The notes below the pieces were generated by a model. It did no database searches and was not told the DNA's origin. It saw only the letters and a list, made by a program, of their open reading frames with translations. Below, piece by piece: positions 6,582 through 23,680 of a DNA stretch of 64,000 nt; the first letter of the stretch is position 1, and each line of letters opens with the position of its first letter. The translations under genes were made by a program, and so were the position numbers. This stretch comes from Fischerella sp. JS2 (lineage in GTDB: Bacteria > Cyanobacteriota > Cyanobacteriia > Cyanobacteriales > Nostocaceae). The stretch covers positions 2,666,001 through 2,730,000 of the forward strand of contig NZ_CP135918.1 in NCBI RefSeq assembly GCF_032393985.1, written 5' to 3'.

Positions 6582-6668
6582 GTTAATTGTGTATTGCTTT
6601 TGCAGCTAGGCAAAGTGCTTGAAAATTTAAGCTGTGTGTTTCTTGATTCAAGGAACGCTAAGACCGCC

Positions 6669-6707
6669 ATTTCATCCTAATTTCATTTCTACATGAAAGA
6701 CTAAAAA
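6669..6707 (+). promoter_or_regulatory. ATTTCAT direct-repeat box 5, before RND efflux operon
   Basis: ATTTCAT at 6669-6675 and 6680-6686, 15 nt, then TAAAAA at 6702-6707. The predicted leader to the adaptor start at 6790 is about 76 nt. Confidence 0.78.
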
Positions 6708-6789
6708 ATGTGTGTATATCTAACACGCACTAATAACAAAAACACGATATGCAATTTCCTTCCCCCAGAACTCAAGGACTTGAAGCACC

Positions 6790-8475
6790 ATGCCCAACTC
6801 CTATTTCAAGCCACTTGTAGCAATTGGTAGTGTTTCTGGTACACTCCTCAGCTTGATATTACTGGTAACTCCCGCAGTAGTTCTAGGTCATGGCGGACAC
6901 GCAGACGAATTTCAAGGTCCAAACCAAACCACTCAAACTACTGACTCAATTCAAGTTGATGCACAGACAGCCAAACGGTTGGGAATTAAAGTCGAGCCAG
7001 TCAAACGCCAGCGACTAGCTGTAGGAATTAAAACCACTGGACAAATTGAAACTCTTCCTAGCCAAAAAGTGGAAGTGACTACCCCAATATCTGGGGCGAA
7101 GGTGGTTGAATTATTGGTCGAACCAGGTGCGAGTGTAACAAAAGGTCAACCTGTTGCTGTTGTTACCAGTCCAGACTTAGTAACATTGCGGGTGGAGTCT
7201 CAGGAAAAATTAGCACAAGCTCAAGCTGATTTACAGCAAGCACAAGCAGACTTGAGGCTGGCTCAACAAAACTACGATCGCTATCAACAAATAGCTGACT
7301 CTGAAATTGCTCAAGCACAAACTCAAGTTGACTTTGCCCAAGAAAAGTACGACAAAGACAAGCAGTTAGCTGATGCTGGTGCTTTACCCCGTCGTAATGC
7401 TTTAGAATCTCAAACCCAACTAGCTCAAGCTAAAGCAGAACTAACCAAAGCCAAGAGCCGTCGAAACGTGATTGAGGCAGAAAATCAACTCAAACGCGCT
7501 CAAGCCGCAGTTCAACTAGCAAAATCAAATATTCATCGCAGTAATACTAATTATCAAACTCGACTTGCTCAACTAGGAAACAGTGCCAACGCTAAGGGAC
7601 TAGTAACAGTAGGCGCTCCCATCTCTGGTAAAATTGCTGATAGAGAAGTAACTATTGGTCAAACATTTAATGATGCTGGCAGCAAATTGATGACGATTGT
7701 CAACGATAGCCGACTGTTTGCCACAGCTAATATTTATGAAAAAGATTTAGGCAAAGTAAAAACTGGTCAAAGGGTGACTCTAAAAGTAGCTAGTATGCCT
7801 GAGCGTACCTTTTCTGGACGAATTTCCCGAATTGGTACAGTAGTGGAAGGACAGACACGAGTAGTACCAGTACAAGCAGAAATTAATAATACTGCTGGGC
7901 AACTCAAACCGGGAATGTTTGCAGAGGTAGAAGTTCTTACAGATCAAGCATCAGCAACTAAGTTGGTTATTCCCACTTCAGCAGTAGTTGACGCGAATGG
8001 TAAAAAAACTGTCTACGTCCAAAATGGTAATGCTTACCAACCTGTAGAAGTTACTTTAGGACAAACTTCTGGGGACATGATTGAGGTTAACAGTGGCTTA
8101 TTCGAGGGAGATATGATTGTTACCCAGCGTGCTACTCAACTTTATGCACAATCTCTGCGAGGGGGTAGCAAACCACAGGAGGAAGCTCCACAAGCTAAGG
8201 CGACGGAGACTAAAGCACCTAAGGAGCCAGTACCACTGTGGCTTTTGGGAACAGGTGGAGGCGCTGCAATAGCTACTTTAGCTTTTATGGGTGGTGCTTT
8301 CTGGAATGGTCAGCGCAACAAATACCAACTTCAACCATCGCCAGAATTAGTCTACGTACCAGAAGAATCTCCCAATGGTTCTGGCAAGTCTCAGGAAACA
8401 CCAACATGGGATGATAATCATCGCGTAGGCGATCGCGAGTCCAAAGCCACCACAGTAAATAAAAATACTCACTAA
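6790..8475 (+). CDS. RND efflux periplasmic adaptor, CusB/CopB-like
   Basis: 561 residues. Signal peptide 1-33 ends in AVVLG and is followed by HGGHADEF, a possible metal-binding start. Lipoyl-type halves flank a long Gln/Ala-rich coiled coil at about residues 137-258; beta-barrel and membrane-proximal domains follow. Adaptors of this class link an inner-membrane RND pump to an outer-membrane channel. Unusually, a hydrophobic segment at about 481-504 and a charged tail of about 57 residues follow the adaptor fold, so the C-terminus may be anchored in the inner membrane. The pump gene begins five bases after the stop. No outer-membrane channel gene follows. Confidence 0.9.
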   Translation: MPNSYFKPLVAIGSVSGTLLSLILLVTPAVVLGHGGHADEFQGPNQTTQTTDSIQVDAQTAKRLGIKVEPVKRQRLAVGIKTTGQIETLPSQKVEVTTPISGAKVVELLVEPGASVTKGQPVAVVTSPDLVTLRVESQEKLAQAQADLQQAQADLRLAQQNYDRYQQIADSEIAQAQTQVDFAQEKYDKDKQLADAGALPRRNALESQTQLAQAKAELTKAKSRRNVIEAENQLKRAQAAVQLAKSNIHRSNTNYQTRLAQLGNSANAKGLVTVGAPISGKIADREVTIGQTFNDAGSKLMTIVNDSRLFATANIYEKDLGKVKTGQRVTLKVASMPERTFSGRISRIGTVVEGQTRVVPVQAEINNTAGQLKPGMFAEVEVLTDQASATKLVIPTSAVVDANGKKTVYVQNGNAYQPVEVTLGQTSGDMIEVNSGLFEGDMIVTQRATQLYAQSLRGGSKPQEEAPQAKATETKAPKEPVPLWLLGTGGGAAIATLAFMGGAFWNGQRNKYQLQPSPELVYVPEESPNGSGKSQETPTWDDNHRVGDRESKATTVNKNTH

Positions 8476-8480
8476 TAAAG

Positions 8481-11400
8481 ATGCTGAGTGCCATCATTAA
8501 ATGGGCGATCGCTCGCCGTTGGTTAGTTATCCTGGGTACAATTATCCTCACAATTTGGATATTTCGGACGATTATCCAAATGCCCTTGGATGTTTTCCCT
8601 AGCTTTGCACCACCCCAAGTTGAAATTCAAACTGAAGCACCAGGACTCGCCCCCGAAGAATTAGAATCTCTGGTAACTTTACCAATTGAAAGTGCAATTA
8701 ACGGCACTCCAGGAGTGACAGCAGTACGCTCATCTTCAGCAGCAGGAATTTCTGTCGTCAAAGTCATCTTTAACTGGGATACTGATATTTATCAAGCTCG
8801 CCAGTTGGTAACAGAGCGATTACAACAAGCTCAAAGTAAGCTTCCCGAAGGGGTAGAAACTCCACAAATTTCTCCTACCAGCTCTCCCATTGGCACTGTA
8901 TTACAATATGCCTTCACCTCCCAAAGCACTCCTTTAATGGAAGTGCGGCGGATTGTTGATTGGCAAGTAACAAACCGCCTTTTAGCTGTGCCTGGTGTTA
9001 GTCAGGTAGTAGCATACGGTGGCGATGTTCGCCAATATCAAGTATTAGTCGATCCAGCGAAGCTAAGAGCCTTTAATGTCACTTTGGAAGACGTAGAGCA
9101 AGCAGCCAAAGCTGCTAATGTTAACGCTCCTGGTGGCTATTTAATTACTCCTGACCGAGAAAAGTTAATTCGCGGAATTGGCAGAATTGAATCTATTGAA
9201 GAATTACAGCAATCAGCAATTACTGCCCGCAATGGTACGCCTGTCAAAATCTCAGATATAGCTGACGTGCAAATTGGTGCAGCTATTAAACGAGGTGATG
9301 GCAGTTTTAACGGTGAAAAGGCAATTGTTGTGATGATTAATAAACAGCCTCAAGCCGATACTCCTACTGTCACCCGTGCTATTGAAGCAGCGATGTCAGA
9401 GATTCAAGCAGGTTTACCCAAAGATGTCAAAGTCACACCAACATTTCGCCAAGAAAACTATATCGATTCTTCTATTGAAAACGTTAGAGAAGCTTTAATT
9501 GAAGGCAGCATTATTGTTGCCTTAATTTTAATTCCTTTTTTGATGAATTGGCGTAACCTAGCTATTTGTTTAACTGCCCTACCTTTATCTTTATTGCTAG
9601 GAGTACTACTACTAAATTGGTTGGGACAAGGTTTAAATACCATGACTTTGGGAGGGTTAGCAGTAGCAATCGGTTCAGCCGTTGATGATGCGATTGTCGA
9701 TGCTGAAAATGTCTACCGTAACCTGCGAGAAAATAAATATTCACCCAACCCGCGTCCGGTTTTAGATGTTGTATTTGAGGGTTGTCAAGAGGTACGCGAT
9801 TCAGTCTTTGGAGCCACTATCATTACCATAGTTGTCTTCTCTCCAGTTTTTGCTTTGGCTGGTGTAGAAGGTAGCATTTTTATCCCAATGGGATTAGGCT
9901 ATATGGCAGCAGTTATAGCCTCTAGTATCACAGCATTAACAGTGACTCCGGCTCTATGTGCAATTTTATTACCTTATGGTCGCCTGCCAGAAACAGAACC
10001 TTGGGTGGCGAGATTTTTTAAGGGGCTGTATCGTCCTCTACTAACATTTTCTCTGCGGCGTTCTGGAATTGTTATAGGGGCTGCGATCGCAAGTTTAGTG
10101 GCTGCGGCTGTAATTGTCCCTTCCTTTGGCAGAATATTTTTACCAGAGTTTCAGGAGCAAACTTTGGTTAATACTCTAACTCTTTATCCGGGGGTTTCTC
10201 TAGAAGCTACTAATGCAGCTGGTGAAACACTTCAACACGCACTCAAGGGAGACTCTAGATTTCCATACGTGCAATTGCGTTCTGGACGTGCGCCAGGAGA
10301 TGGAGACGCAGCCGGGGTAAATTTAGGACACTTGGATATCGAGTTAAGCGACGCAGGAATGAAAGATAGGGAGGGGACGATTGAGAAGTTACGCCAAGAA
10401 TTTGCGAAATTACCGGGAGTAGCACCGAATATTGGGGGCTTTATCTCACACCGTATGGATGAGGTGTTGTCTGGGGTGAGGAGTGCGATCGCAGTCAAAA
10501 TCTTTGGCCCCGACTTAGAACAACTCCGCACAATTGGACAGCAGGTTGATGATGTCATGAAAACCGTTAATGGGATTGTAGATTTACAACTAGAACCCCA
10601 AATACCAATTGAACAAATACAAATTAAATTCAACCGACCTGCTGCTTCACGGTATGGTTTGACAGTAGGCAAACTGTCTGAGATTATTGAAACTGCTCTG
10701 AATGGGCGAGTAGTATCTCAAGTTTTAGAAAAACAACAAACTTTCGATTTGACTGTATGGTTAAAGCCAGATGCACGGCAAAACTTGGATACGATTCGCA
10801 ATTTGTTAGTTGATACTCCTAATGGTCAAAAAATTCCTTTAGCACAGGTTGCCACAATTGAAAATGGTACTGGGCCTAATACTATAAATAGAGAAAATGT
10901 ATCCCGCTTGATTGTTGTGTCCGCTAACGCTAATGGTAGAGATTTGCGCTCTATCGTTAACGAAATTAGAGACAAAGTTAATCAACAGGTACATCCACCC
11001 TCTGGTTACTATATCCAGTATGCGGGACAGTTCGAGGCAGAAGAAAGAGCAACTCAAAATATCTTAATTTCGAGTGCGATCGCCTTTGTTGCAATTACAG
11101 TAATTATGTACCTTTCTGTCAAATCTATTCCTTCCACCGCCATGATTATGATTAACTTGCCTTTGGCGTTGGTGGGGGGAGTATTTTCAGTAGCTTTGTC
11201 TGGCGGCGTTATTTCAATTGCCTCTTTAGTTGGCTTTATCACTCTATTTGGAGTTGCTACCCGCAATGGTTTGTTACTTGTGGATAATTACAACACTAAA
11301 TTTGCGGAAGGTACACCAGTTAAAGAAGTTCTTATTAAAGGATCAATGGAACGTCTGAATGCCATTTTGATGACAGCTTTTACCTCTGCTTTAGGATTAG

Positions 11401-11603
11401 CACCTTTAGTAATTGAGAGTGGCCCCGGAAAAGAAATCTTACAGCCACTTTCAATAGTGGTGTTAGGTGGTTTATTTACTTCTACCGCATTAACTTTAAT
11501 GGTCTTACCAGCTTTATATGCTAAATTTGGTAAGTTCTTATTGCCTAAACGTACTATCTCAGTTGTAGAGGATGGCAAAGTACCAAAAGCAGTTTTTGAG
11601 TAA
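8481..11603 (+). CDS. Heavy-metal efflux RND pump, CusA/CopA-like
   Basis: 1040 residues, the normal size for an HME-RND proton-driven trimeric pump. First helix near residues 11-30 (WLVILGTIILTIWIF), porter domain starting MPLDVFPSFAPPQVEIQTEA, then the helix cluster from about 335. The charged helix-4 motif is IGSAVDDAIVDAENVYRN. The second porter domain and second helix bundle are complete to FITLFGVATRNGLLLVDNY. The gene follows the adaptor by five bases, one operon under box 5. Copper or silver is the likely substrate by analogy with CopBAC of Synechocystis; the sequence does not prove the metal. The third partner, copC/TolC, is absent. Confidence 0.92.
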   Translation: MLSAIIKWAIARRWLVILGTIILTIWIFRTIIQMPLDVFPSFAPPQVEIQTEAPGLAPEELESLVTLPIESAINGTPGVTAVRSSSAAGISVVKVIFNWDTDIYQARQLVTERLQQAQSKLPEGVETPQISPTSSPIGTVLQYAFTSQSTPLMEVRRIVDWQVTNRLLAVPGVSQVVAYGGDVRQYQVLVDPAKLRAFNVTLEDVEQAAKAANVNAPGGYLITPDREKLIRGIGRIESIEELQQSAITARNGTPVKISDIADVQIGAAIKRGDGSFNGEKAIVVMINKQPQADTPTVTRAIEAAMSEIQAGLPKDVKVTPTFRQENYIDSSIENVREALIEGSIIVALILIPFLMNWRNLAICLTALPLSLLLGVLLLNWLGQGLNTMTLGGLAVAIGSAVDDAIVDAENVYRNLRENKYSPNPRPVLDVVFEGCQEVRDSVFGATIITIVVFSPVFALAGVEGSIFIPMGLGYMAAVIASSITALTVTPALCAILLPYGRLPETEPWVARFFKGLYRPLLTFSLRRSGIVIGAAIASLVAAAVIVPSFGRIFLPEFQEQTLVNTLTLYPGVSLEATNAAGETLQHALKGDSRFPYVQLRSGRAPGDGDAAGVNLGHLDIELSDAGMKDREGTIEKLRQEFAKLPGVAPNIGGFISHRMDEVLSGVRSAIAVKIFGPDLEQLRTIGQQVDDVMKTVNGIVDLQLEPQIPIEQIQIKFNRPAASRYGLTVGKLSEIIETALNGRVVSQVLEKQQTFDLTVWLKPDARQNLDTIRNLLVDTPNGQKIPLAQVATIENGTGPNTINRENVSRLIVVSANANGRDLRSIVNEIRDKVNQQVHPPSGYYIQYAGQFEAEERATQNILISSAIAFVAITVIMYLSVKSIPSTAMIMINLPLALVGGVFSVALSGGVISIASLVGFITLFGVATRNGLLLVDNYNTKFAEGTPVKEVLIKGSMERLNAILMTAFTSALGLAPLVIESGPGKEILQPLSIVVLGGLFTSTALTLMVLPALYAKFGKFLLPKRTISVVEDGKVPKAVFE

Positions 11604-11701
11604 TGATAAATATTATAGGAATTTTATCTTTTAGAATCCTTGATGCTTTCAGTACAAAAGGTGTTAGTAATCAGGTTAATGAATAGTTCTATATATTCAC
11701 T

Positions 11702-12328
11702 ATGACCGAAACCAAAGTTCGCCAGCAGTATGACAAGCTAGCAGCAATATATGACCAACGCTGGAATAGTTATGTTGCAAATACGCTTTCATTTCTGAAA
11801 GACTGGGTGCAAATATCTCCATCAACAACTGTGCTGGATGTTGCCTGTGGAACAGGTGAATTTGAACGGTTATTGTTAACTGAGAACCCAACGCAACGTA
11901 TAACTGGAGTAGACATTTCAGAGAAGATGCTGCTTGTAGCTCAACAAAAACTTCAAGCATATCCTCATGTCTCGTTTCACACTGCTAGCGCGTTGGCGTT
12001 ACCATTTGAAAACAATAGTTTTGATGTAGTTGTATCTGCCAATTCGTTCCATTATTTTGATGACCCAAATGCCGCATTAGTAGAGATGAAACGTGTATTG
12101 AAACCTGACGGTAAAGTAATTATTTTGGATTGGTGCAAAGATTATTTATTGTGCCGCCTTTGCGATTTTATATTAAAGTTGGTTGATCCTGCTTATAAGC
12201 AGTGTTATTCCCAATTTGAATTTCACAATTTACTCAAATCTGCACAGTTTGATATTGAGCGAGCAACAAAATTTCATTTTGGTGTAGTGTGGGGAATGAT
12301 GGTTGCTACAGCGACACCACAACCATGA
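11702..12328 (+). CDS. Class I SAM-dependent methyltransferase
   Basis: 208 residues. Motif I is VLDVACGTGEFERLL near residue 47, followed by GVDISEKMLL, FDVVVSANSFHYF and VLKPDGKVIILDW, the standard order of a UbiE/methyltransf_11 fold. No three-cysteine arsenite site is present, so it is not an ArsM. The substrate cannot be told. It sits about 100 bases after the RND pump in the same direction, with no box of its own, and could be read through from the efflux operon. Confidence 0.82.
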   Translation: MTETKVRQQYDKLAAIYDQRWNSYVANTLSFLKDWVQISPSTTVLDVACGTGEFERLLLTENPTQRITGVDISEKMLLVAQQKLQAYPHVSFHTASALALPFENNSFDVVVSANSFHYFDDPNAALVEMKRVLKPDGKVIILDWCKDYLLCRLCDFILKLVDPAYKQCYSQFEFHNLLKSAQFDIERATKFHFGVVWGMMVATATPQP

Positions 12329-12599
12329 CTAAAAATACGACGTTGCATGAATGCGGAATGAATTGGCGGTTGAAACTATTAAAAATGCGTTCCCAATTAG
12401 GTGAGATTATCTCATGATATGGCTAACGCCAAGCTGCGCTAACAGCAACGCTAAAAATACTACACCCCTTCTAGAAAATAGCAGAGTGGTGAAAATGGTC
12501 TTGTAAAGACTATTTTCCAGCTTTGATAAATATGCCCCCTCCCCCCATTAGTGTTAAAGTATTAATATAAAAGACTTTTATAACTATGCCCCTTGATAA

Positions 12600-13991
12600 A
12601 TGAATACCTTGACATTTTTCCGCAGCTTGAGAAATCCGGTATTTGCAAGGCTGTATACTGCTCAAACCACTAGTTTATTGGGTGATGCGCTTACTTGGGT
12701 GGGTTTAGCCCTTCTGGCTTTTAACTTAGCTGGAAAGAATGCGGCGGTTGTACTTTCAGTAGCTTTAACTCTGCGTGTTACCGCTTTTGTATTGCTGTCC
12801 CCTCTTGCAGGTGCGATCGCAGATCGCCTTGATCGTAAGAAAATCATGGTTGTTACCCACATATTCAGAATGTTAATTGTGGGTATGTTGCCTTTTGTGA
12901 CGCAAATTTGGCAAGTTTACATATTAATATTTGCGCTTAACGTTTTTAATGCTTTTTTTACTCCAACTTACCAAGCCACAATTCCATTAGTCACGGGTGA
13001 GAATGACTATGCAGGCGCGATCGCTCTTTCGTCCGCTACTTACCAATTACTTGGTGTACTTGGCCCCGGTATCGCTGGAAGTGTCGCCGCCTTCATTGGT
13101 GCGAGACAAGTTTTCTTTTTGGATGCTCTCAGCTTTGCGATCGCCGCAGTCTTAATCTTCACCCTACCAGGTCAGCTCGTCGTTGCACAAAATCAACAGC
13201 CTTCCAGAACAACACGCCGAACATGGGGAGACATTAAAGACGGTACAACTCGCCTGCTTACAGATGCACCTATTCGTTACGCGCTAGCGATGCAGTTAGT
13301 CGCATCAATTGCCGGAGCGCAAATCTTAGTCAATACTGTTGGCTACGTCCAAGGTACACTTAAGTTTGGAGAAGTGCAGTACGGCTGGGTGATAGCAGCT
13401 TTTGGGATTGGTGCAACTCTCTGTGCAGTTATTTATGGTACGTTCAATAGAAGTTTGTCGCGTACAACGTTTGTTTTGATTGGTGCAACTTTGATCACCT
13501 TGGCTTTATTACCTGCCAACTACGCAAATTTAACAGTATTGATGGTCTTGTGGTTGGTAGCGGGTGCGGGGCAAAATTTAGTCAACTTACCTACTCAGAC
13601 ATTAATTGCAGACCGTATTCCAACTGCTATACAAGGGCGAGTTTATGGCGCACACTTTACCTGGAGTCATCTTTGGTGGGCAATCTCCTACCCTCTTGCG
13701 GGTTGGTTAGGAAGTCACTTTGCTGAACGTGAGTTTATTTACGGTAGCTTAGTGGGCTTGATGCTGCTAGTGGTAGTACAAATTACCCTCTCGCCTCATC
13801 CACATGAACACGAACATCTCCACTATCCTAGTGTGCATGAACATAAACACATCCACGATGAATGCCATCAGCATGACCACGATGAGGGGATAGCTATAGG
13901 CGAACCTCACAACCATGTTCACGAACACACGACGATTATCTATCACACTCACCCTCACACTAGGGACATTCACCATCGCCATAGTCACTAA
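12600..13991 (+). CDS. MFS metal exporter with His-rich tail, NrsD/NreB-like
   Basis: 463 residues. About 400 form a 12-helix major-facilitator fold, including the inter-helix motif GAIADRLDRKKIMVVTH. The cytosolic tail of the last 64 residues contains 23 histidines (HPHEHEHLHYP to HHRHSH). Such tails mark nickel exporters of the NreB/NrsD type, where they bind metal. No ATTTCAT box lies upstream. The 12,329-12,599 gap carries only AT-rich sequence and two short CTTGATAAAT-like repeats before the start. Nickel (or cobalt) export is the best guess from family knowledge. Confidence 0.88.
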   Translation: MNTLTFFRSLRNPVFARLYTAQTTSLLGDALTWVGLALLAFNLAGKNAAVVLSVALTLRVTAFVLLSPLAGAIADRLDRKKIMVVTHIFRMLIVGMLPFVTQIWQVYILIFALNVFNAFFTPTYQATIPLVTGENDYAGAIALSSATYQLLGVLGPGIAGSVAAFIGARQVFFLDALSFAIAAVLIFTLPGQLVVAQNQQPSRTTRRTWGDIKDGTTRLLTDAPIRYALAMQLVASIAGAQILVNTVGYVQGTLKFGEVQYGWVIAAFGIGATLCAVIYGTFNRSLSRTTFVLIGATLITLALLPANYANLTVLMVLWLVAGAGQNLVNLPTQTLIADRIPTAIQGRVYGAHFTWSHLWWAISYPLAGWLGSHFAEREFIYGSLVGLMLLVVVQITLSPHPHEHEHLHYPSVHEHKHIHDECHQHDHDEGIAIGEPHNHVHEHTTIIYHTHPHTRDIHHRHSH

Positions 13992-14493: not shown

Positions 14494-15435
14494 ATGCCAA
14501 GGATGACCATTGACCAATTACAGATTTTCTTGGCGGTGGCCCAGCATCTGCACTTTACTCGCGCAGCTGAGGAGCTTTACATTACTCAACCTTCTGTTAG
14601 TGCTGCCATCCAAAGCCTTGAGGAACAATATGGAGTGAAACTGTTTAATCGAGTTGGTCGTCGGATTGAACTAACACTTGCTGGCAAAATACTACAAGTA
14701 GAAGCACAAAAAATTTTGATTCAGGTGGAGTTGACTGAGCGAGGATTGCGAGAATTAAATGACCTGAAACGGGGTGAACTCAAGTTAGGTGTAAGCCAAA
14801 CCATAGGTAATTACTGGCTCCCTCGCTTCATTAGCTTGTTTAAGCAAGAGTATCCCAATATTTCTGTAGATTGTATATTAGGTAACACCACTGAAATTAG
14901 CGAAGGAATGGTTACAGGATTGTTTGACCTCAGCTTGGTGGAAGGAGAAGTTGAACCATCGGTTTTAGCTTCTGTGGAACAACAAATTGTCGGTGGGGAT
15001 TGTCTGCAAATTGTTGTTGGTCAATCTCATCCTTGGTTTGAAAAAATAGCAGTTGAGGTAACAGAATTAACAAACACTACCTGGGTAATGCGTGAGAAAG
15101 GCTCAGGAACCCGTCAGCAGTTTGAGCAAGTGCTAAGACAATGGGGTATTGAACCAACCGAGTTAAATGTAATTTTGGAGATGAAAAGCGGTGATATGGT
15201 CAAAGCAGCCGTTGAAAGTGGGGTAGGATCTGCGGCGATTTCTAACCTGATTATTACTAAAGAACTACGTCTTGATATGCTTCGTTGTATTAAAGTTACA
15301 GGTGTTTCTCGCAACACTAACGATCCAGATCCACTCTCACGACCTTTCTTTTTATTAAAGCATCGAGAGCGCTTTCAAACCCGCATTTCTCAGGTGTTTG
15401 AGCAATTGTTATTATCGGCTAGGTCTGTGGAATAG
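14494..15435 (+). CDS. LysR-family transcriptional regulator
   Basis: 313 residues. A winged helix-turn-helix at 1-60 (QIFLAVAQHLHFTRAAEELY, SAAIQSLEEQYGVKLFNR) and a periplasmic-binding-like effector domain from about 90. The family includes CbbR, CmpR and YeiE-type sulfur or carbon regulators. It converges with the beta-propeller gene and is about 4.7 kb from a YeiH-type exporter, a frequent LysR partner. The effector cannot be told. Confidence 0.9.
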   Translation: MPRMTIDQLQIFLAVAQHLHFTRAAEELYITQPSVSAAIQSLEEQYGVKLFNRVGRRIELTLAGKILQVEAQKILIQVELTERGLRELNDLKRGELKLGVSQTIGNYWLPRFISLFKQEYPNISVDCILGNTTEISEGMVTGLFDLSLVEGEVEPSVLASVEQQIVGGDCLQIVVGQSHPWFEKIAVEVTELTNTTWVMREKGSGTRQQFEQVLRQWGIEPTELNVILEMKSGDMVKAAVESGVGSAAISNLIITKELRLDMLRCIKVTGVSRNTNDPDPLSRPFFLLKHRERFQTRISQVFEQLLLSARSVE

Positions 15436-15458: not shown

Positions 15459-16934
15459 TTACTTCGACATTGACTGTAGCTGAATCTGCACAGGCATTCC
15501 CGGAACATCATCTTTCAATGGTACGATGACTAAATACCGACGAGATTGTGCGCCTGCATCACCCTTGACAACCTGCCCAATTGGCCCCAATGTCGTCACA
15601 ATTGCCGCGCCAGATGGGTTGGTTTGGAACTTCGCCAAGGGTTGTAATTTACCGTAGGGTTGGCTAGAACGCTCCGCTAATGCCAATTGATACATACTTT
15701 TAGGTTGCAATCCAGTTACTGCTGCTTCTAGTAAATCAATCACGCCTAAGTTGTTGACCGTCACAGTCGTTGCAGGCTTTTTAGCTGATGAACCTGGCGC
15801 ACCCATTACCAAATGAGCCACCATACCAGACTTGCCCAAAGGCTCTAGATTTGCCAATCCATCCCCAGTCGGAACTGCATTAGGAATATAAACTAGTGCT
15901 TGCGAGGATTGACCGCTTGGGATTGTGGCAATTACTCTGTTTTTGATAGTATCAATTACAGTCATCTTAGTACCATTTTCTAATGCGACGTAGATACGAG
16001 TACCATCACCAGAGGGCCAAAGACCGTGGGGTAACTCACCCGTCGGAATAGTTGCGACCAGTTTGGGAGTATTTGTAGTTGTAAAAACTTTTACCACATT
16101 CTCGCCGCCAACGGTAATATAGGCGAATTGTCCTTTCTGATTCCTGACAATGTTGACGTGGTTGGTGATTGCCCCGGTATCCAAGGTAGCAATAATGTTG
16201 AAGGGAGCTTCTGCGTTGAATACCTGAACTTTACCAGTATCTTTTAATGTGAACCAAATTTGCTTACCGTCGGGAGTCGCAGCAATATTTGGGCAAAAAG
16301 GAGAGGCTTGTTTAACTGTTGCTACGACTTGATGCGACTTGACATCGATGACGCTTGTCTGCGGTGTGAAACTAGAGCAGACAAATCCAAACTTGCCATC
16401 GGGACGAAAAATTGTCATCCCAGGGCCATTACCAACGCTGATACGCTGCTTTTCTTTATAGGTTTGACTGTCTAATACTGAAACATAATCTTCTCCCCGT
16501 ACCGTTACCCAAACTTCACTACCATCAGGAGTGAAGAAAGCTTCGTGAGGCGATCGCCCAACATAGGTAATGTGCTTAACTTTATTTGTCTGGGTATCAA
16601 TAAAGGCTACCGAGTTAGAACCAACTGAAACCACCGCTAAGGTGCGATTGTCAGGCGAAAAACCCATACCATGCACTAGCAATTGACCAGTATACAGGGG
16701 ACTCAAATTCTCTGGCGCTGTTTTACCTAGACGAATGACTCCCAGCAGTTTATTGGTTTGGGGATTGTAAACAGAAATGGTATTGGAGGTTTGGTCAGCT
16801 GTGTAAACGCGATCGCGTCCACTAATTGGAATGTCTGGTGTAGATGCTGCATAAGGAACTTGCCCTGCAAAAGCTGGCGCTGTCAAAGTTAGTAGAATAG
16901 CAGATGTAATTGTAGCGATCGCTCGATTGTGCAT
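15459..16934 (-). CDS. Secreted YVTN-type beta-propeller protein
   Basis: 491 residues. Signal peptide 1-23 (ends APAFAG), then six to seven repeats of the form 'VYTADQTSNTISVYNPQTNK', 'VAVVSVGSNSVAFIDTQTNK' and 'VWVTVRGEDYVSVLDSQTYK', the YncE/YVTN seven-blade pattern, and a C-terminal region of about 130 residues resembling a fibronectin-like module. Such proteins are periplasmic or secreted, with varied ligands. It is the last gene of a minus-strand run that begins with the alternative oxidase, 17 bases after a DUF305 gene. Confidence 0.85.
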   Translation of the reverse strand: MHNRAIATITSAILLTLTAPAFAGQVPYAASTPDIPISGRDRVYTADQTSNTISVYNPQTNKLLGVIRLGKTAPENLSPLYTGQLLVHGMGFSPDNRTLAVVSVGSNSVAFIDTQTNKVKHITYVGRSPHEAFFTPDGSEVWVTVRGEDYVSVLDSQTYKEKQRISVGNGPGMTIFRPDGKFGFVCSSFTPQTSVIDVKSHQVVATVKQASPFCPNIAATPDGKQIWFTLKDTGKVQVFNAEAPFNIIATLDTGAITNHVNIVRNQKGQFAYITVGGENVVKVFTTTNTPKLVATIPTGELPHGLWPSGDGTRIYVALENGTKMTVIDTIKNRVIATIPSGQSSQALVYIPNAVPTGDGLANLEPLGKSGMVAHLVMGAPGSSAKKPATTVTVNNLGVIDLLEAAVTGLQPKSMYQLALAERSSQPYGKLQPLAKFQTNPSGAAIVTTLGPIGQVVKGDAGAQSRRYLVIVPLKDDVPGMPVQIQLQSMSK

Positions 16935-16951: not shown

Positions 16952-17296
16952 TTACTTTTGTGAGGGTGATTGTGGACGCTTAAGCGCCAGCTGCATTAAT
17001 TCAATTTCTGATTGTTGAGTGACGATAATTTCCTGTGCCAATCGTCGCAGCCGAGGATCGGTTCCGTACTGCAACTCAATTTTTGCCATCTCAATTGCCC
17101 CTTGGTGATGAGGAATCATCATTGCAGCAAAATCAGTATCAGGATTCCCAGTCATCTTGACATTTTGCATCTGTGTATGCATTGAGGTCATCGTTTGCTC
17201 AAAAGCCTGATTTGCAGCAGTATGATGGGGCATCATCATCGACGCGATCAGAATGCCAATTGATAAGGAAAGTAAAAAAGGTGCATTGAAAGACAT
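16952..17296 (-). CDS. DUF305 single-domain protein
   Basis: 114 residues. An N-terminal hydrophobic helix is followed by one DUF305 domain with two paired-histidine motifs (MMMPHHTAANQAF and AMMIPHHQGAIEMAK) and several Met residues, consistent with a copper-type ligand set. It lies between the NTF2-like lipoprotein gene (16 bases upstream) and the beta-propeller, within an apparent operon. It is the second DUF305 gene of the window; unlike the first it has no ATTTCAT box. Confidence 0.85.
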   Translation of the reverse strand: MSFNAPFLLSLSIGILIASMMMPHHTAANQAFEQTMTSMHTQMQNVKMTGNPDTDFAAMMIPHHQGAIEMAKIELQYGTDPRLRRLAQEIIVTQQSEIELMQLALKRPQSPSQK

Positions 17297-17312: not shown

Positions 17313-17864
17313 TTATGGTTTAACGATTTTCCAGGTTTCTTCAGTAATTTGATAGTTACCAGAGACAGATTTGTAAACTAAGGTATAGTCTACGGGGATT
17401 TTATTCTTGCCATTGTTGAATGTAACCAACGCTTTCACTATCTCTGTTCCCTGCTGTCCTGTGGTGCTTTTAACATTAGTAATAGTAGTTTGAAGAGGTG
17501 CTTGGGCTTTGATAAACTTCTGCCATACTGCTTGAATCTTGTCTTTACCTTGATACTCTCCTGCTAAAGGGCCGCCAATCCAATGTAACGTGGGTGATTC
17601 ACTATACTGGGACATCACTAAAGTTAAATCACCTTGAGCGATCGCACTCCAATGACTTTGAGCTAAAGTTGTTGGAGTGCTAGCTGTGGAACTTTCACTT
17701 ACACTACTAGGCTTCGTTGGGGATGAAGTTGTGCTTGGTGCAGAACCATATCCTGAATTAGCATCACTTGCTGATTGATTAGAACAAGCCACACTAAAAG
17801 TAAGAACCAGCACTAGCAACACTGGGAAAATAGCAGATTTTGATAAAGCTTGAGTAGAAATCAT
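17313..17864 (-). CDS. NTF2-like (SnoaL/DUF4440) lipoprotein
   Basis: 183 residues from ATG at 17864, chosen for GAGAGG 9 nt upstream; an ATG five codons earlier is less likely. A lipoprotein signal ends in FSVAC. A Ser/Thr/Pro-rich linker leads to a cone-shaped NTF2-type domain (SHWSAIAQGDLTLVMSQYS, WIGGPLAGEYQGKDKIQAVW). These domains bind small molecules or act as accessory subunits; no catalytic role can be assigned. It is in line with the alternative oxidase operon. Confidence 0.75.
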   Translation of the reverse strand: MISTQALSKSAIFPVLLVLVLTFSVACSNQSASDANSGYGSAPSTTSSPTKPSSVSESSTASTPTTLAQSHWSAIAQGDLTLVMSQYSESPTLHWIGGPLAGEYQGKDKIQAVWQKFIKAQAPLQTTITNVKSTTGQQGTEIVKALVTFNNGKNKIPVDYTLVYKSVSGNYQITEETWKIVKP

Positions 17865-17944
17865 GAAACAACCTCTCAAATTATGTTTTTGAAGTGAAAA
17901 AGCTAGATTAATTTCGGTGAATCATCAGCTGAATTGGAGATGAG

Positions 17945-18400
17945 TTAACCAATTCTTTGCCACCATAAAAGACCGACAGCTACGGAATAAATAATGCCAA
18001 AATAAAACATGAGACTGAATGTAGAAAGCCATTTGCCATATTGTCCTTTCATAGCTTGGTTGGCTCTAGTCTGAACATTCATCTTTACTTCTCCTGACAC
18101 TTCCATTTCTCGTAAATATTCCCGCAGACAATTAGTGAAACTATTGAAGCGCCAAAATAGAACAAAAGCAAACCAGTAAATTGCTAAAGCCACACTGTGA
18201 GAAATAATTGGTGGAACAGGTGGATTTAGAGTTTGCAGTGAGAAGCCAAAGATAGCAAAGCTAACGCTAAAAAAGAAGGTTGTTACATTCCAGCGAGTTT
18301 TAGTATGTTCTTGTTCTCTTTCCCAAAGTTTTAAATATAATTCCTCATTACTTAAACCTATCTGGTCATCTGGCGATTTTAAAGGTTCGATATTGCTCAT
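17945..18400 (-). CDS. Two-helix membrane protein of unknown function
   Basis: 151 residues from ATG at 18400 (AGGAGCAAGG just upstream); a longer frame to 18448 has no such site. A charged N-terminus with a helical EELYLKLWEREQEHTKTRW segment is followed by two hydrophobic helices (about 40-90), a polar loop and a last helix FGIIYSVAVGLLWW. It lies 64 bases after the alternative oxidase gene and probably shares its mRNA. I do not recognise the family. Confidence 0.65.
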   Translation of the reverse strand: MSNIEPLKSPDDQIGLSNEELYLKLWEREQEHTKTRWNVTTFFFSVSFAIFGFSLQTLNPPVPPIISHSVALAIYWFAFVLFWRFNSFTNCLREYLREMEVSGEVKMNVQTRANQAMKGQYGKWLSTFSLMFYFGIIYSVAVGLLWWQRIG

Positions 18401-18464
18401 TGTCCTTGCTCCTGAATGAAATAAATTAGTCGCAAGTTCAGCAAACACTGTAGTAAAAATTCCA

Positions 18465-19205
18465 CTACGACATCAAGACTTCATCTGCATTGGTATCTTC
18501 AATAATTGATTCAGCCGTTTGATTAATGGCATGAATAGTCTCTTCAGGTAAAAATTTAGCTTCCGGGCTATGGGGGCTTTTGAAAGTTAATTGTGCGTCA
18601 GATTGCTGACAAGCAACCATCGTTTTGATGTGTTCGCCTTCATCGTCTCGAATTGCTACATAGACATCATATAGATTTTCAATTTTTGGACGACGTTCGG
18701 CTATTGGATGAGAAGTTTGAAATTCATCAAACATATAAAGGTCACCATCGCGGTAGTAATTAATCGCTACTTGCGGTGCTGGCTGAGTTTTAAGTTCCGC
18801 CTCATGCTCTTTTAAAAATATGTCGTAAGTGTGGTATGCGTGTTCTTCTATTAGCTGTGTGAAGTAATAAGCACTAGAAGGAGAAATAATGTACACGAAT
18901 ATCAAAATCCAGTAGTAAATTACAACACCACTGTGAGCAATAAAGCGGTCAATCCAATATTTATTACCTCCTAGTGACTCAGCAATGAGTAGGTGATGCA
19001 ACTCATTCCAAGATTCAGCAAAGTGGACTTTCAGCCAGTCAGATTTTCGCCACCAGCCGAGACTTTCATAAAGGTGAAGGACTGACAAAAAAGCAAAGTA
19101 GGGAACTCTAGCTACTGTTTCCAGCACATAAAATCTTGCATATAAACGCTCGCGGTAAAAAGCGTTTAAAACAAATTCTAAAAAATCAACTAGTAATCGA
19201 ATCAT
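18465..19205 (-). CDS. Alternative oxidase (AOX/PTOX-type di-iron quinol oxidase)
   Basis: 246 residues. The four helix motifs that bind the di-iron centre are present: LET (Glu29), NELHHLL (Glu68 and His71), IEEHAYHTY, and RDDEGEHIKTM near residue 195. Two hydrophobic helices give a monotopic or membrane-bound protein. It oxidises quinol and reduces oxygen to water without pumping protons, and is insensitive to cyanide and sulfide. It heads a minus-strand run of five genes; the psb28-like gene lies upstream, separated by a perfect 13-bp hairpin. Confidence 0.93.
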   Translation of the reverse strand: MIRLLVDFLEFVLNAFYRERLYARFYVLETVARVPYFAFLSVLHLYESLGWWRKSDWLKVHFAESWNELHHLLIAESLGGNKYWIDRFIAHSGVVIYYWILIFVYIISPSSAYYFTQLIEEHAYHTYDIFLKEHEAELKTQPAPQVAINYYRDGDLYMFDEFQTSHPIAERRPKIENLYDVYVAIRDDEGEHIKTMVACQQSDAQLTFKSPHSPEAKFLPEETIHAINQTAESIIEDTNADEVLMS

Positions 19206-19316: not shown

Positions 19317-19736
19317 TTAGTTGGAAGTTTCCGTGTAAGCCATTCCTTGAGAAGTAGCATAATATCTGAGAAAACGCATCACACGGTTCCAATTATCTTC
19401 TGCAACATGGAAACTAATCGCCACTTCACTGGTGCGAAAGCCATCTACAACATGACTCACCGCTACATCTTCTGGATAAACAGTAATTTCACCTTCTGAG
19501 TCAACTAAGTGCATAGCATCTATAGAATGGACAAATTCTCCCCAGCCTTCCATTGTATGAATGGGAGTAGAAGCTGAGTTTTCTGCAAAGACAAATGTCA
19601 CTATCTTTTGGTTATTGAGCCGCTTGTCACGTTTCAAACTAATACGGCTGACCTCTTCTGGAATTCCTGGAGTGAAAAATACAACTGGTAAGTTTGCATT
19701 ATTAGAAGAGACATTCGAGACTGTTGAAGTAGACAT
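19317..19736 (-). CDS. Psb28-family photosystem II assembly protein
   Basis: 139 residues from ATG at 19736 (GAGGTG site; longer frame to 19781 unlikely). The Psb28 signature is clear: FTPGIPEEVSRISLKRDK at the start, MHLVDSEGEITVYPEDV in the middle, and WNRVMRFLRYYATSQGMAYTE at the end, as in Psb28 proteins that bind PSII assembly intermediates near CP47. The divergence and longer N-terminus suggest the Psb28-2 type rather than the housekeeping copy. Its association with aox is unusual and may reflect a stress form. Confidence 0.8.
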   Translation of the reverse strand: MSTSTVSNVSSNNANLPVVFFTPGIPEEVSRISLKRDKRLNNQKIVTFVFAENSASTPIHTMEGWGEFVHSIDAMHLVDSEGEITVYPEDVAVSHVVDGFRTSEVAISFHVAEDNWNRVMRFLRYYATSQGMAYTETSN

Positions 19737-19805
19737 AATTAACACCTCTGTGTGTTTTTGAATCAAGTTTTTTTCTTTCACAATTTCAGCTTATGTGAAT
19801 CAATC

Positions 19806-20055
19806 AATAGAAGCAAACGTTCTCTTCTATAAAAATAATAGTTTTAATCTATTAATTTTCTAGTCTTAGCTGAAACTGTTGCATACTCGAACGTTGAGGA
19901 GAATCATAAATGCAATTGAAGTTGACATAGGAATCACACATATTTGCAATAACTGTAGTTTAGTTACCTTCACCTTCCAGCTTTGAGTAACTTTCATGTC
20001 AAGCGTTAATAGTTTAAAACTATCATTTGTATAGTTAAGAACGTTTGCTTCTATT
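19806..20055. promoter_or_regulatory. Two copies of an 18-bp site in opposite orientation in a divergent promoter region
   Basis: AATAGAAGCAAACGTTCT at 19806-19823 is the exact reverse complement of AGAACGTTTGCTTCTATT at 20038-20055. One lies 70 nt upstream of the psb28-like start, the other 46 nt upstream of the YeiH-type gene, each reading away from its gene the same way. The outer AGAA/TTCT forms a small dyad. This looks like one regulator serving both promoters. No gene is visible in 19,737-20,100. Confidence 0.65.
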
Positions 20056-20100
20056 ATTATAACCGCTTAAAGTTATACCAACCCTAAATACGAGGTTGAT

Positions 20101-21108
20101 ATGAAACAAGATATTAGAAGAAATAAGAGATTGCAGATACCGCAACTTAGTTCAGAACAAAAGCTGCTGTATCGAAAAATTGTGTTTCTCTTAGCGGCTG
20201 GATTTTGTCTGACTCCTTGGGCTTCACCACCAATAGCGCTGATGTTGGGGATTCTTCTAGCACTGACTCACGAGAACCCATTTCATCGGATTAGCCGCCC
20301 AGCCGCTAAATATTTACTAGAAGCATCCGTAATTATGCTGGGCTTTGGGATGAATTTAGCAGTTGTGTTAAAGGCAGGTGCAAGCGGTGCTTTGTTTGCT
20401 GTTGGTAGCATCAGTGCAACCTTCATTCTTGGCTATTTTCTAGGGAAATGGTTGAAGATTCCCATTAAAGCCTCTGCCTTAATTTCAGCTGGAACAGCTA
20501 TTTGTGGCGGAAGTGCGATCGCCGCAGTCAGTTCAGTAATTAACGCTGCCGAAAGTGAGATTTCCGTAGCAATGGGAACAGTTTTTGTCCTCAACGCCGT
20601 TGCTTTATTCGTATTTCCACCTCTGGGACACGTACTGCACTTGACCCAAGCGCAATTTGGAACCTGGTCAGGTATAGCAATCCATGACATTTCCAGTGTG
20701 GTTGGTGCAGCATCACATTATGGTCAGAGTGCGTTGTACACAGCCACAGCAGTCAAACTTTCCCGCGCCCTATGGATTGTACCTATTTCAGCAGCAGCAA
20801 GTTATATATTTCAACGTCAACAGTCAAAATCGGGTGATGTGATTCATAAACCTCAAGTTCCCTGGTTTATTGGCTTGTTTATCCTTGCTTCTGTTGTACG
20901 GACTTTTATCCCAGAAGTTGCTTCTTGGTCGCCAGTGGTAACACACGTTTCGGAAGCGGGTTTGACGTTAACGCTGTTTTTAATTGGTGCAGGGCTATCT
21001 CAGAGGATGTTGAAAGCAGTTGGTTGGAAACCGATGCTTCAGGGAGTGCTGCTGTGGATATTTATTAGTGCTACTTCGCTTGGTGTCATTCTATTAGTCG
21101 TGCATTAG
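20101..21108 (+). CDS. YeiH-type putative sulfate/sulfite exporter
   Basis: 335 residues, about ten hydrophobic helices, with the family hallmarks VIMLGFGMN and GTAICGGSAIAAV in the middle. Members (UPF0324, Cons_hypoth698) are inner-membrane proteins often found beside LysR regulators and sulfur genes and are thought to export sulfate or sulfite. It converges with a TauE gene of the persulfide operon, so two anion exporters stand back to back. Transport function is inferred. Confidence 0.85.
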   Translation: MKQDIRRNKRLQIPQLSSEQKLLYRKIVFLLAAGFCLTPWASPPIALMLGILLALTHENPFHRISRPAAKYLLEASVIMLGFGMNLAVVLKAGASGALFAVGSISATFILGYFLGKWLKIPIKASALISAGTAICGGSAIAAVSSVINAAESEISVAMGTVFVLNAVALFVFPPLGHVLHLTQAQFGTWSGIAIHDISSVVGAASHYGQSALYTATAVKLSRALWIVPISAAASYIFQRQQSKSGDVIHKPQVPWFIGLFILASVVRTFIPEVASWSPVVTHVSEAGLTLTLFLIGAGLSQRMLKAVGWKPMLQGVLLWIFISATSLGVILLVVH

Positions 21109-21162: not shown

Positions 21163-22011
21163 TCAATAATGTTGCTCTTGCCGTATAGGATGTTGTTGGG
21201 GAAAGTAAGATGAATAAAATTTGTTGCGGTTTTGGAATAAAACAAAAGTTGCTACAGCTATCAGAAAATATCCAAAACCTCGCTGTAACTGTCTGGGTTT
21301 AACAAATCGAGAAAAGTAAGCACCACCGATTATTCCCAAACTAGCAGCAATTGTAAACGAAATCATCAAATTCCAATTGAGTGGTATGTGTCCGAGATAA
21401 CCTATAAATCCTGCACCAGAATTAAGGATTATTATCACTAACGAAGTACCAATTGCTTCGCGCATAGGTGTATTTCCTAACAAAACTAAAGCCGGAACAA
21501 TCGCAAATCCCCCACCGACTCCAACTAATCCAGTTAACAAACCTACGCCTAATCCTTCAGTAATCATCCATAACCAACAGTATTTACAAATTGGCTTGGG
21601 ATATAAACTGATGTCCAATTCTCCTGGAGAATTTTTTTTAACTGGTTGAGAACCTTTTTTAATCATGAATATTGCTGCCACGAACACCACTACAGCAAAT
21701 AAAATCATCTGAAATGAACCAGTTATCAAGGGAAGTGTGGCAATTTTAGCTCCTAAAAACGCTCCTAACATTGTGGCAGCACCAAATATAAAAGCAGTTC
21801 TAAAATTCACATTTCCCTGTTTCCAATGGGGAATAGCACCAATAATGCTTACAAATCCCACGATAAATAAAGTCATAGCAATGGCAGGTTTTGGTGCTAC
21901 ACCCATTACATAAACTAAGACTGGAACTGCTAATACTGAACCTCCTCCACCAATCAATCCCAAACTAATACCAATAAAAACAGCTAGGAGAATTCCAAAT
22001 AAAAAGGTCAT
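21163..22011 (-). CDS. TauE/SafE-family sulfite exporter
   Basis: 282 residues with about eight membrane helices in two halves, each with the TauE glycine-rich start (GLIGGGGSVLAVPVLVY and GLVGVGGGFAIVPALVL). TauE/SafE proteins move sulfite, sulfoacetate or similar anions out of the cell. It is the third gene of the minus-strand operon with the DUF442 and persulfide dioxygenase genes (41-base gap), so sulfite made by persulfide oxidation is the likely cargo. Confidence 0.9.
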   Translation of the reverse strand: MTFLFGILLAVFIGISLGLIGGGGSVLAVPVLVYVMGVAPKPAIAMTLFIVGFVSIIGAIPHWKQGNVNFRTAFIFGAATMLGAFLGAKIATLPLITGSFQMILFAVVVFVAAIFMIKKGSQPVKKNSPGELDISLYPKPICKYCWLWMITEGLGVGLLTGLVGVGGGFAIVPALVLLGNTPMREAIGTSLVIIILNSGAGFIGYLGHIPLNWNLMISFTIAASLGIIGGAYFSRFVKPRQLQRGFGYFLIAVATFVLFQNRNKFYSSYFPQQHPIRQEQHY

Positions 22012-22052
22012 TGATTCTAATCAGTTAATAATTCCGTTCAATCAGCATAAAA

Positions 22053-22769
22053 TCATCCTTTGTTCTCAGACAATACAGATGTATTGACATTACCACAGCG
22101 TTCATTTGCAGGAACTGCTTCCATAATTTTTTGTGGCGTTGGGAGAATCAAATGATCCATGAGTTCAATAAATTGTTGACGATTTTTCCCCGTAAATCTA
22201 GGATTCCAGCGTTTTTCTTCGCCAATGGTAGATACTGTTTGTCCACGATAGTCATGCCCAGGATATACCAAAGTTTCATCTGATAAAGTAAATAGTTTTT
22301 GTGTCACTGAGTCAAACAAAGTTCCCGCATCACCACTTTGAAAGTCGGTTCGTCCACAGCCACGAATAAACAAGGCATCTCCAGTTAAAACTCGATCTTG
22401 ATTAACTAAATACGCCATGTGGCTATCTGTATGACCTGGTGTGGCGATCGCCTGAATTGTTATGCTTGCCAATTGTAAGATTTCTCCATCTCTAATGTAC
22501 CGATCTGCACAACTGGCTTGAGCTTTATCGGGAACAATCCCTAAACAATCGGTCATTTCCCGCAATTTGGCTGTACCTGTAATATGATCTGCATGGATGT
22601 GGGTTTCTAAGCAGTAACGCAGAGATAACCCTAATTCTGTCAGTAGTTTTAAATCACGTTCGACTTGCTCCAGTACCGGATCGACCAAAATAGCTGTTTG
22701 AGTTTGTTGATCTGCAAGTAAATAAGTGTAAGTGCTGCTTTCTCTGTCAAATAACTGTCTGAATAACAT
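22053..22769 (-). CDS. Persulfide dioxygenase-like metallo-beta-lactamase (ETHE1 type)
   Basis: 238 residues. The metal motif is THIHADHITG, followed by TPGHTDSHMAYL and YPGHDY. The FIRGCGRTDFQSGDAGTLF stretch is typical of ETHE1/Blh enzymes rather than glyoxalase II. ETHE1 enzymes use iron and oxygen to oxidise glutathione persulfide to sulfite. It lies between the DUF442 gene (30 bases upstream) and tauE, the arrangement seen in BigR-type sulfide detoxification operons. Confidence 0.92.
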   Translation of the reverse strand: MLFRQLFDRESSTYTYLLADQQTQTAILVDPVLEQVERDLKLLTELGLSLRYCLETHIHADHITGTAKLREMTDCLGIVPDKAQASCADRYIRDGEILQLASITIQAIATPGHTDSHMAYLVNQDRVLTGDALFIRGCGRTDFQSGDAGTLFDSVTQKLFTLSDETLVYPGHDYRGQTVSTIGEEKRWNPRFTGKNRQQFIELMDHLILPTPQKIMEAVPANERCGNVNTSVLSENKG

Positions 22770-22799
22770 AGTGTTTCCTCTTGCAACAATGCCAAAACC

Positions 22800-23249
22800 T
22801 CAATTTGTTTGTAAGTGAGTTGAAACATAATGTTCAAGGAACTGTTTCATCTGCGGATTAGCATTACAGTCGAAGCCAGCCGCAGCAGCTTTCTCAAATA
22901 CTTGCTCTGGTGTCATTCCTTGTCGCGTCGCTACGTTCATAAATGCCATTAAACCCGCACGCATAGCACTGGCACAATGAATTAAGGCGGGTTTGGGTAG
23001 CTGATCAATTTGCTCAAGTACCTCTGTAGTCAGTTCATCGCTAATCTCGTTTGGCTTAACAGGAATGTTAATGTAGTGCAGTCCCAAGGCTTGTGCTTGT
23101 TGCTGTTCATCGCTGAGAAAACCTTGTTCATCAGGCGATCGCAGATTGAGTACAGACTTGTAACCTTCACTAACCGCCTGCTGTAACTGCTCCAGTGTTA
23201 CCTGTCCTGCTACTGTTAATTCATTGTTAATCTTTTTGACGTTTTCCAT
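22800..23249 (-). CDS. DUF442 / beta-lactamase hydrolase-like protein phosphatase-fold protein
   Basis: 149 residues. The opening VAGQVTLEQLQQAVSEGYKS and LNLRSPDEQGF, and the P-loop HCASAMRAG (HCX5R), identify the dual-specificity-phosphatase-like DUF442 family. These are fused or adjacent to ETHE1-type enzymes and may act as persulfide or thiol transfer proteins. First gene of the operon, divergent from the ArsR regulator with 86 bp between starts. Confidence 0.88.
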   Translation of the reverse strand: MENVKKINNELTVAGQVTLEQLQQAVSEGYKSVLNLRSPDEQGFLSDEQQQAQALGLHYINIPVKPNEISDELTTEVLEQIDQLPKPALIHCASAMRAGLMAFMNVATRQGMTPEQVFEKAAAAGFDCNANPQMKQFLEHYVSTHLQTN

Positions 23250-23278
23250 TGCTGTCTTAGCTCTTAACTGTATTTATT

Positions 23279-23310
23279 ATATCACCATATAGTAATATAA
23301 TAGTGTATAT
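23279..23310. promoter_or_regulatory. Candidate operator between DUF442 and ArsR genes
   Basis: ATATCAC (23279-23285) and GTGTATAT (23303-23310) make an imperfect AT-rich dyad centred in the 86-bp divergent gap. ArsR/BigR repressors bind such dyads over both promoters. It is a candidate by position only. Confidence 0.35.
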
Positions 23311-23335
23311 ATAAAGATTTAATATTTAAGTCTGT

Positions 23336-23680
23336 ATGTTAGGATCTTCCCCTCAAGCTCTTGCTCCTGTTGCTGAATACTTTAAAGTCTTGTCAGAAGT
23401 AAGTCGGCTGCAAGTTTTGTGTTGTCTCAAGTCAGGAGCGAAAAACGTGACAGAAATCATCCAAGAAACCGGACTGGGACAAGCAAATGTTTCCAAACAT
23501 TTGAAAGTATTGATGCAAGCGGGTATAGTCACTCGTCAACCACAAGGAATCAGTGTTTTTTACCAAATTACTGACCCGATAATTTTTGAGCTATGTGAGT
23601 TAGTGTGCGATCGCCTTGCTATGCGGCTGCAAGAACAAACACAACAGTTAGAACAACTACAAGCACTACGCCAACCGTAA
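23336..23680 (+). CDS. ArsR-family regulator, BigR/SqrR-like
   Basis: 114 residues. Winged helix with LSEVSRLQVLCCLKSGAKN, then GLGQANVSKHLKVLMQAGIV and a wing QPQGISVFYQIT. Cysteines at 29/30 and 87/91 occupy the helix positions where BigR and SqrR carry the disulfide/tetrasulfide-forming pair, while the ELCVCD-type metal site of ArsR/SmtB is absent. It therefore probably senses persulfide and represses the divergent DUF442-dioxygenase-TauE operon and itself. Divergent position supports this. Confidence 0.85.
   Translation: MLGSSPQALAPVAEYFKVLSEVSRLQVLCCLKSGAKNVTEIIQETGLGQANVSKHLKVLMQAGIVTRQPQGISVFYQITDPIIFELCELVCDRLAMRLQEQTQQLEQLQALRQP

Follow-up and report, generated by a model that had tools for sequence, protein, structure and literature searches.

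Genomic context of the inverted pair

The window, i.e., the whole stretch of 64,000 nucleotides of Fischerella sp. JS2 analysed here, contains a 364-bp intergenic region from which genes diverge on both sides (Table 1). To the right lies a gene for a YeiH-like transporter; to the left, the psb28-like, alternative-oxidase, memb167, SnoaL-like, DUF305 and beta-propeller genes follow one another on the minus strand from 19736 to 15459, and probably form one operon. Beyond them is a gene for a LysR-type regulator, at a distance of 4.7 kb from yeiH. The motifs of the oxidase are, we assume, like those of the plastid-type terminal oxidases. Relatives of the psb28-like gene at E ≤ 1e-30 were found in none of 388 other sampled genomes of the order, while Fischerella muscicola, which is outside this sample, has the gene.

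Other parts of the window contain an IS605 OrfB/TnpB-like transposase gene (1814-2938), a metal-resistance-like island (5835-13991) with DUF305, a CusB/CusA-like pair, a methyltransferase and an MFS transporter with a histidine-rich tail, and a second sulfur cluster (21163-23680) with genes for a TauE-family exporter, a metallo-beta-lactamase-fold protein, a sulfur-transferase-like protein and an ArsR-family protein; this cluster also adjoins yeiH in G069, a genome of the same genus.

Table 1. Genes and predicted regulatory features around the inverted pair; positions are those of the window.
Feature	Position	Strand	Evidence or remark
LysR-type regulator, proposed binder of both arms	14494..15435	+	
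YVTN/lactonase-type beta-propeller gene, end of left run	15459..16934	-	
DUF305/CopM-like metallochaperone gene	16952..17296	-	
SnoaL-like gene	17313..17879	-	
memb167, 167-aa membrane protein, no family	17945..18448	-	in PCC 7702, a separate copy of the site precedes the homolog
Alternative-oxidase family gene	18465..19205	-	PF01786, 120 bits
psb28-like gene, first of left run (ATG 19736)	19317..19736	-	PF03912, 58.6 bits; TIGR03047, 60.2 bits (cut-off 61.1)
-10 of psb28-like operon, TAAGCT, 17-bp spacer	19788..19793	-	predicted start ~19781
Left arm, same predicted operator, for psb28-like operon	19806..19855	-	inverted-pair and site alignment
Left 18-mer, holds -35 TTGCTT (19811-19816)	19806..19823	-	
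ATAGATTAAAACTAT, left-arm T-N11-A dyad	19838..19852	-	
Right arm, predicted LysR-type operator of yeiH	20006..20055	+	inverted-pair and site alignment
Right-arm half-sites	ATAG 20009-20012, CTAT 20020-20023, ATAG 20031-20034, CTAT 20051-20054	+	
ATAGTTTAAAACTAT, T-N11-A dyad, predicted recognition site at ~-64 of yeiH	20009..20023	+	T and A invariant in 15 sites
Right 18-mer, predicted activation-site block, holds -35 TTGCTT (20045-20050)	20038..20055	+	
-10 of yeiH, TAAAGT, 17 bp past TTGCTT	20068..20073	+	TAnnnT invariant in 15 sites; predicted start ~20080
yeiH-like transporter gene	20101..21108	+	PF03601, 202 bits; TIGR00698, 103.6 bits (under its cut-off)

The initial annotation had pointed to an exact 18-bp inverted pair in this region, and the pair is indeed there: AATAGAAGCAAACGTTCT, on the left, is the reverse complement of AGAACGTTTGCTTCTATT, on the right, and the reported spacings of 70 and 46 nt fit the starts ATG 19736 (psb28-like) and ATG 20101 (yeiH). 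The view that such a match is improbable by chance is also borne out, as nucleotide-successor shuffling of the intergenic region, repeated 1000 times, gave longest exact inverted repeats of 7.7 bp on average and 13 bp at most, against the 18 observed. The 18 bp, however, understate the true extent of the repeat: the two 18-mers are the outer ends of a 50-nt inverted pair with 88% identity, whose arms are separated by a gap of 150 nt. The strong single-strand fold at this place (z -7.0) simply reflects the inverted arms, and no Rfam match was found between 19000 and 21200.

In the organism's own genome (7,020,691 bp) there are two strong copies of the operator, both in this intergenic region, scoring 69.3 and 66.9 bits, and the next match reaches 25.2 bits. 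A search with the 15-mer core, allowing up to two mismatches, gave 32 matches against 23 for the reversed control, which is near background. The search upstream of other genes, proposed with the initial annotation, yielded no further strong copy in this genome, and copies before yeiH and at other loci in the genomes of relatives.

Anatomy of the predicted operator-promoter units

A total of 15 sites from 10 genomes could be aligned without gaps over 73 columns, and each arm together with about 20 bp downstream is predicted to be one complete LysR-type promoter unit. Read towards the gene, the unit has the order TTAATAG-n-TTAAAA-CTAT-n2-TTT-n2-ATAG-n2-AAGAACGTTTGCTTCTAT, followed by a -10 element 17 bp after TTGCTT. 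All 15 sites have the T and A of the T-N11-A motif, the CTAT and the TAnnnT of the -10, and within the 18-mer the TTTG and TAT vary little or not at all. The T-N11-A dyad has the form ATAG-N7-CTAT and is centred at about -64 from the predicted start (taken as seven bases after the -10), close to the position of about -65 that is characteristic of LysR-type sites; a second ATAG one helical turn past the dyad and the block AGAACGTTTGCTTCTAT, lying over the -35, have the features of an activation site, and the centre of AGAACGTTTGCTTCT falls at about -35 from the predicted start. It is at these places, around -64 and -35, that LysR-type recognition and activation sites have been described (PMC4834489).

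Both arms have TTGCTT as the -35 hexamer, which is a poor -35, and this is why a generic promoter scan found neither of the two promoters; a poor -35 fits what is expected of an activator-dependent promoter. Moreover, 43 of 51 operator columns are identical between the two arms, against 10 of 29 in the DNA beyond the operator, which is about chance, indicating that the operator has been kept by selection.

The DNA beyond the left arm matches the promoter of ORF124-memb167 of cyanobacterium PCC 7702 in 20 of 29 columns and, by eye, also resembles the SnoaL promoter of the same organism. This likeness to other promoters of the gene set suggests that the left promoter is probably an older, separate promoter of the same regulon and not a new inverted copy of the yeiH promoter.

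Distribution of the site in related genomes

When a 301-bp stretch of the region was searched against 217 genomes of the family, matches were found in ten others, one of which (G020) looks unrelated on inspection. The inverted pair is present in G069 and G151, and the remaining matches show one arm per place, mostly directly before yeiH orthologs in several cyanobacterial genera. An exact-pattern scan of reference genomes identified carriers that include Fischerella muscicola PCC 7414, Nostoc sp. S4, cyanobacterium PCC 7702, Brasilonema sp. CT11, Hassallia byssoidea, a Nostocales MAG and a Chroococcidiopsidaceae MAG.

A site between a divergently transcribed lysR gene and its target is the textbook arrangement for regulators of this family. 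Exactly this was observed in G419, G074 and G447, where the site lies between lysR and yeiH, and in Hassallia and MAG 434 lysR is directly upstream of the site. In PCC 7702 the homologs of the window genes are scattered, and three unlinked loci, namely yeiH, ORF124-memb167 and SnoaL-DUF305-beta-propeller, each have a site; the LysR ortholog (85% identical) is elsewhere in the chromosome, far from all three. Further copies were found in G074 before a TauE-family gene (55.6 bits) and, weaker, in Nostoc sp. S4 before a gene of 278 aa (28.8 bits). On the other hand, no operator was found near the other alternative-oxidase genes of the family (28 further loci, about 1.5 kb on each side), and the oxidase as such is therefore not generally part of the regulon.

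In Nostoc sp. S4 (L056:8239-8493) the oxidase gene is truncated to some 80 residues and the psb28-like gene is missing, with the left operator arm intact, as if most of the left operon had been removed by a recent deletion.

These data bear on the possibility, put forward in the initial annotation as what would overturn its reading, that the region is a decayed inverted insertion sequence or a MITE, whose terminal inverted repeats flank unrelated DNA. Two 50-bp arms with 150 bp of DNA between them, AT-rich and strongly folding, do have the look of such an element. Nevertheless, dispersed copies are absent from the 7.02-Mb genome, other genera have a single arm at the same place before yeiH, scattered single arms precede other genes of the set, the conserved unit continues past the 'end' of the arm into the -10, and the DNA past the left arm is similar to PCC 7702 promoters belonging to this gene set. 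The conserved single arms in orthologous promoters led us to reject a mobile element, which we consider extremely improbable.

A LysR-type protein as the candidate shared regulator

A single regulator very likely turns on yeiH in one direction and the psb28-like/oxidase operon in the other, as the initial annotation had suggested for the two genes, and strong comparative support for this comes from the anatomy of the site, the single sites flanked by divergent lysR and yeiH in further genera, the co-occurrence of site and regulator, and the half-sites that go with the regulator clade. Two proteins had been named as candidates, the LysR protein encoded at 14494 and the ArsR protein encoded at 23336.

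Among the 217 family genomes, 10 have a site of at least 50 bits and 11 a LysR ortholog, with 9 having both (Fisher P 2e-13, a value inflated by shared descent); co-occurrence is partly due to descent and to linkage, although linkage does not apply to PCC 7702. Each of the 9 genomes that possess yeiH has both the site and the LysR ortholog. The exceptions are G020 and G180, with a LysR ortholog and without a strong site, and G025, with a site and without a close LysR ortholog.

The ArsR protein, which is SqrR/BigR-like, is encoded nearby, with the sulfur-transferase/dioxygenase-like cluster, and PCC 7702 has both this protein and the site. Its distribution, however, is wrong for the shared regulator: among 15 genomes searched, close orthologs (at least 92% identical) are confined to G000, G069, G070 and G034; G070 has an ArsR 97% identical and neither the site nor the LysR ortholog; and in at least 5 genomes (G151, G077, G082, G022 and G074) the site occurs without a close ArsR. 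In addition, a half-site repeat of 11 bp with a T-N11-A dyad is of the LysR type. We rejected ArsR on the grounds of its genome distribution, and regard this candidate as very unlikely. The sites between lysR and yeiH, the co-occurrence of orthologs and the co-variation of half-sites described below argue instead for the LysR protein.

A paralogous clade of LysR proteins, 57-65% identical, adjoins weaker order-wide matches of the operator model. These matches score about 20-35 bits, and from the approximately 30 that were looked at they appear to be mostly the sites of this clade. The matches stand before Cad-family transporter genes, confirmed by family tests in the organism's own genome, and before permease-like and other genes assigned by eye. 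Both clades have the half-site spacing and the block AGAACnTTTGmTTCTAT, or a form of it, but differ in their targets and in their half-sites, which are ATAG/CTAT/ATAG with the window-type LysR and mostly ATCA/TTAT/ACAA with the paralogs. Residues 34 and 60 of the DNA-binding domain are Ser and Arg in the window-type proteins, and Ala and mostly His in the paralogs; the LysR proteins of G074 and G447 combine Ser34 with His60, and the half-sites of G074 are intermediate. On the LysR tree these groups are clustered, with 4 label changes as opposed to 11.8 after shuffling. This co-variation follows descent and is not independent of the tree, so that it supports recognition of the site by the LysR clade without proving it.

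Two side observations concern the paralogs. At about 28-35 kb ahead of the window in the same genome (L136:4983-12432), a second cluster combines a LysR paralog with several Cad-family transporter genes and two weak matches of the operator model, and at L083:1500-2600 a paralog-type site precedes by about 400 nt a gene for a small secreted protein, possibly psb27.

Proposed model and possible DNA looping

On the whole, we interpret the inverted pair, with considerable confidence, as two back-to-back LysR-type operator-promoter units, each predicted to drive the gene on its own side. The LysR protein encoded at 14494 would most likely bind each arm as a tetramer and wait on the DNA until its signal binds; it would then recruit RNA polymerase at both promoters, the rightward one switching on yeiH and the leftward one the operon of psb28-like, alternative oxidase, memb167, SnoaL, DUF305 and beta-propeller genes. 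Binding by LysR, activation rather than repression, the left operon and the start sites are all predictions from the comparison of sequences. The kind of mechanism is known; the novelty lies in the regulon, which would join a YeiH-family transporter to a psb28-like/oxidase operon in a few cyanobacteria.

A direct precedent is ThnR, a LysR-type activator of tetralin degradation that acts at two close divergent promoters and for which a DNA loop has been shown (PMC4834489). As predicted for the window, one intergenic region holds two sites for one LysR-type regulator, one per promoter; ThnR differs in its function and in its demonstrated loop. Cooperation of the two sites through a loop would be an addition to the LysR model and not an alternative to it. 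The dyad centres are about 171 bp apart, and the same separation is kept in Fischerella muscicola (219 bp between like points). Against this, one site is enough in most genomes, and in Nostoc sp. S4, where the psb28-like gene is lost, the separation is 36 bp shorter (about 3.4 turns), without keeping the helical phase. Looping is thus possible and not required, and we judge it rather unlikely.

The signal and the similarity to YeiE-YeiH

In Salmonella, the LysR-type regulator YeiE binds its promoter region and turns on yeiH when sulfite is present, and resistance to sulfite depends on yeiH (PMC12880088). The YeiE-YeiH system of Salmonella and E. coli, in which the genes of the sulfite sensor and its target diverge, resembles the window in pairing a LysR-type regulator with a PF03601 transporter, the operator being between or near them, and the adjacent or co-regulated yeiH expected for YeiE is found here as well. 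By alignment, the ligand domains have in common the pocket-like segments SxTIGNY and RExGSGTR. The window differs in having a second, opposite promoter for the psb28-like/alternative-oxidase operon. Since the window LysR scores 170.6 bits against the YeiE model NF040889, far under the cut-off of 480 (it is 28% identical to E. coli YeiE), it was not filed as YeiE, but it may work like it.

This analogy, together with the copy of the site that precedes a TauE-family gene in a relative, makes a sulfur compound the probable signal, with sulfite as the best, though tentative, guess. The copies at the TauE-family gene of G074 and at the 278-aa gene of Nostoc sp. S4 lend support to a role in sulfur-anion handling. 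The same pair of LysR promoters could also respond to a metal, e.g., copper, or to a redox cue, as might be expected from the CopM-like/DUF305 gene in the left run, the CusB/CusA-like and further DUF305 genes upstream, and the Cad-family transporters that accompany the paralogous LysR. The constant partner of the window-type LysR clade, however, is yeiH, which in Salmonella is a sulfite-resistance gene (PMC12880088), and the secondary target in G074 is a TauE-family gene. We consider a metal or redox signal somewhat improbable, while giving it real weight.

Biological significance

The locus may belong to a sulfite-responsive LysR regulon of cyanobacteria, in which export of the toxic compound by YeiH, and in some species by TauE, is coupled to a Psb28-like factor of photosystem II and to a terminal oxidase; we offer this as a speculative and rather doubtful proposal. 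A description of such a regulon in cyanobacteria was not found in the open-access literature searched. With its two LysR clades and two main types of half-site, the operator series represents a natural data set for the study of DNA choice by LysR proteins, and the proposal names a regulator, an operator and a set of genes that can be tested. If true, a chemical stress signal would directly open an outlet for electrons and protect photosystem II, and the transporter of enterobacterial sulfite resistance would be linked to respiratory and photosynthetic electron flow.
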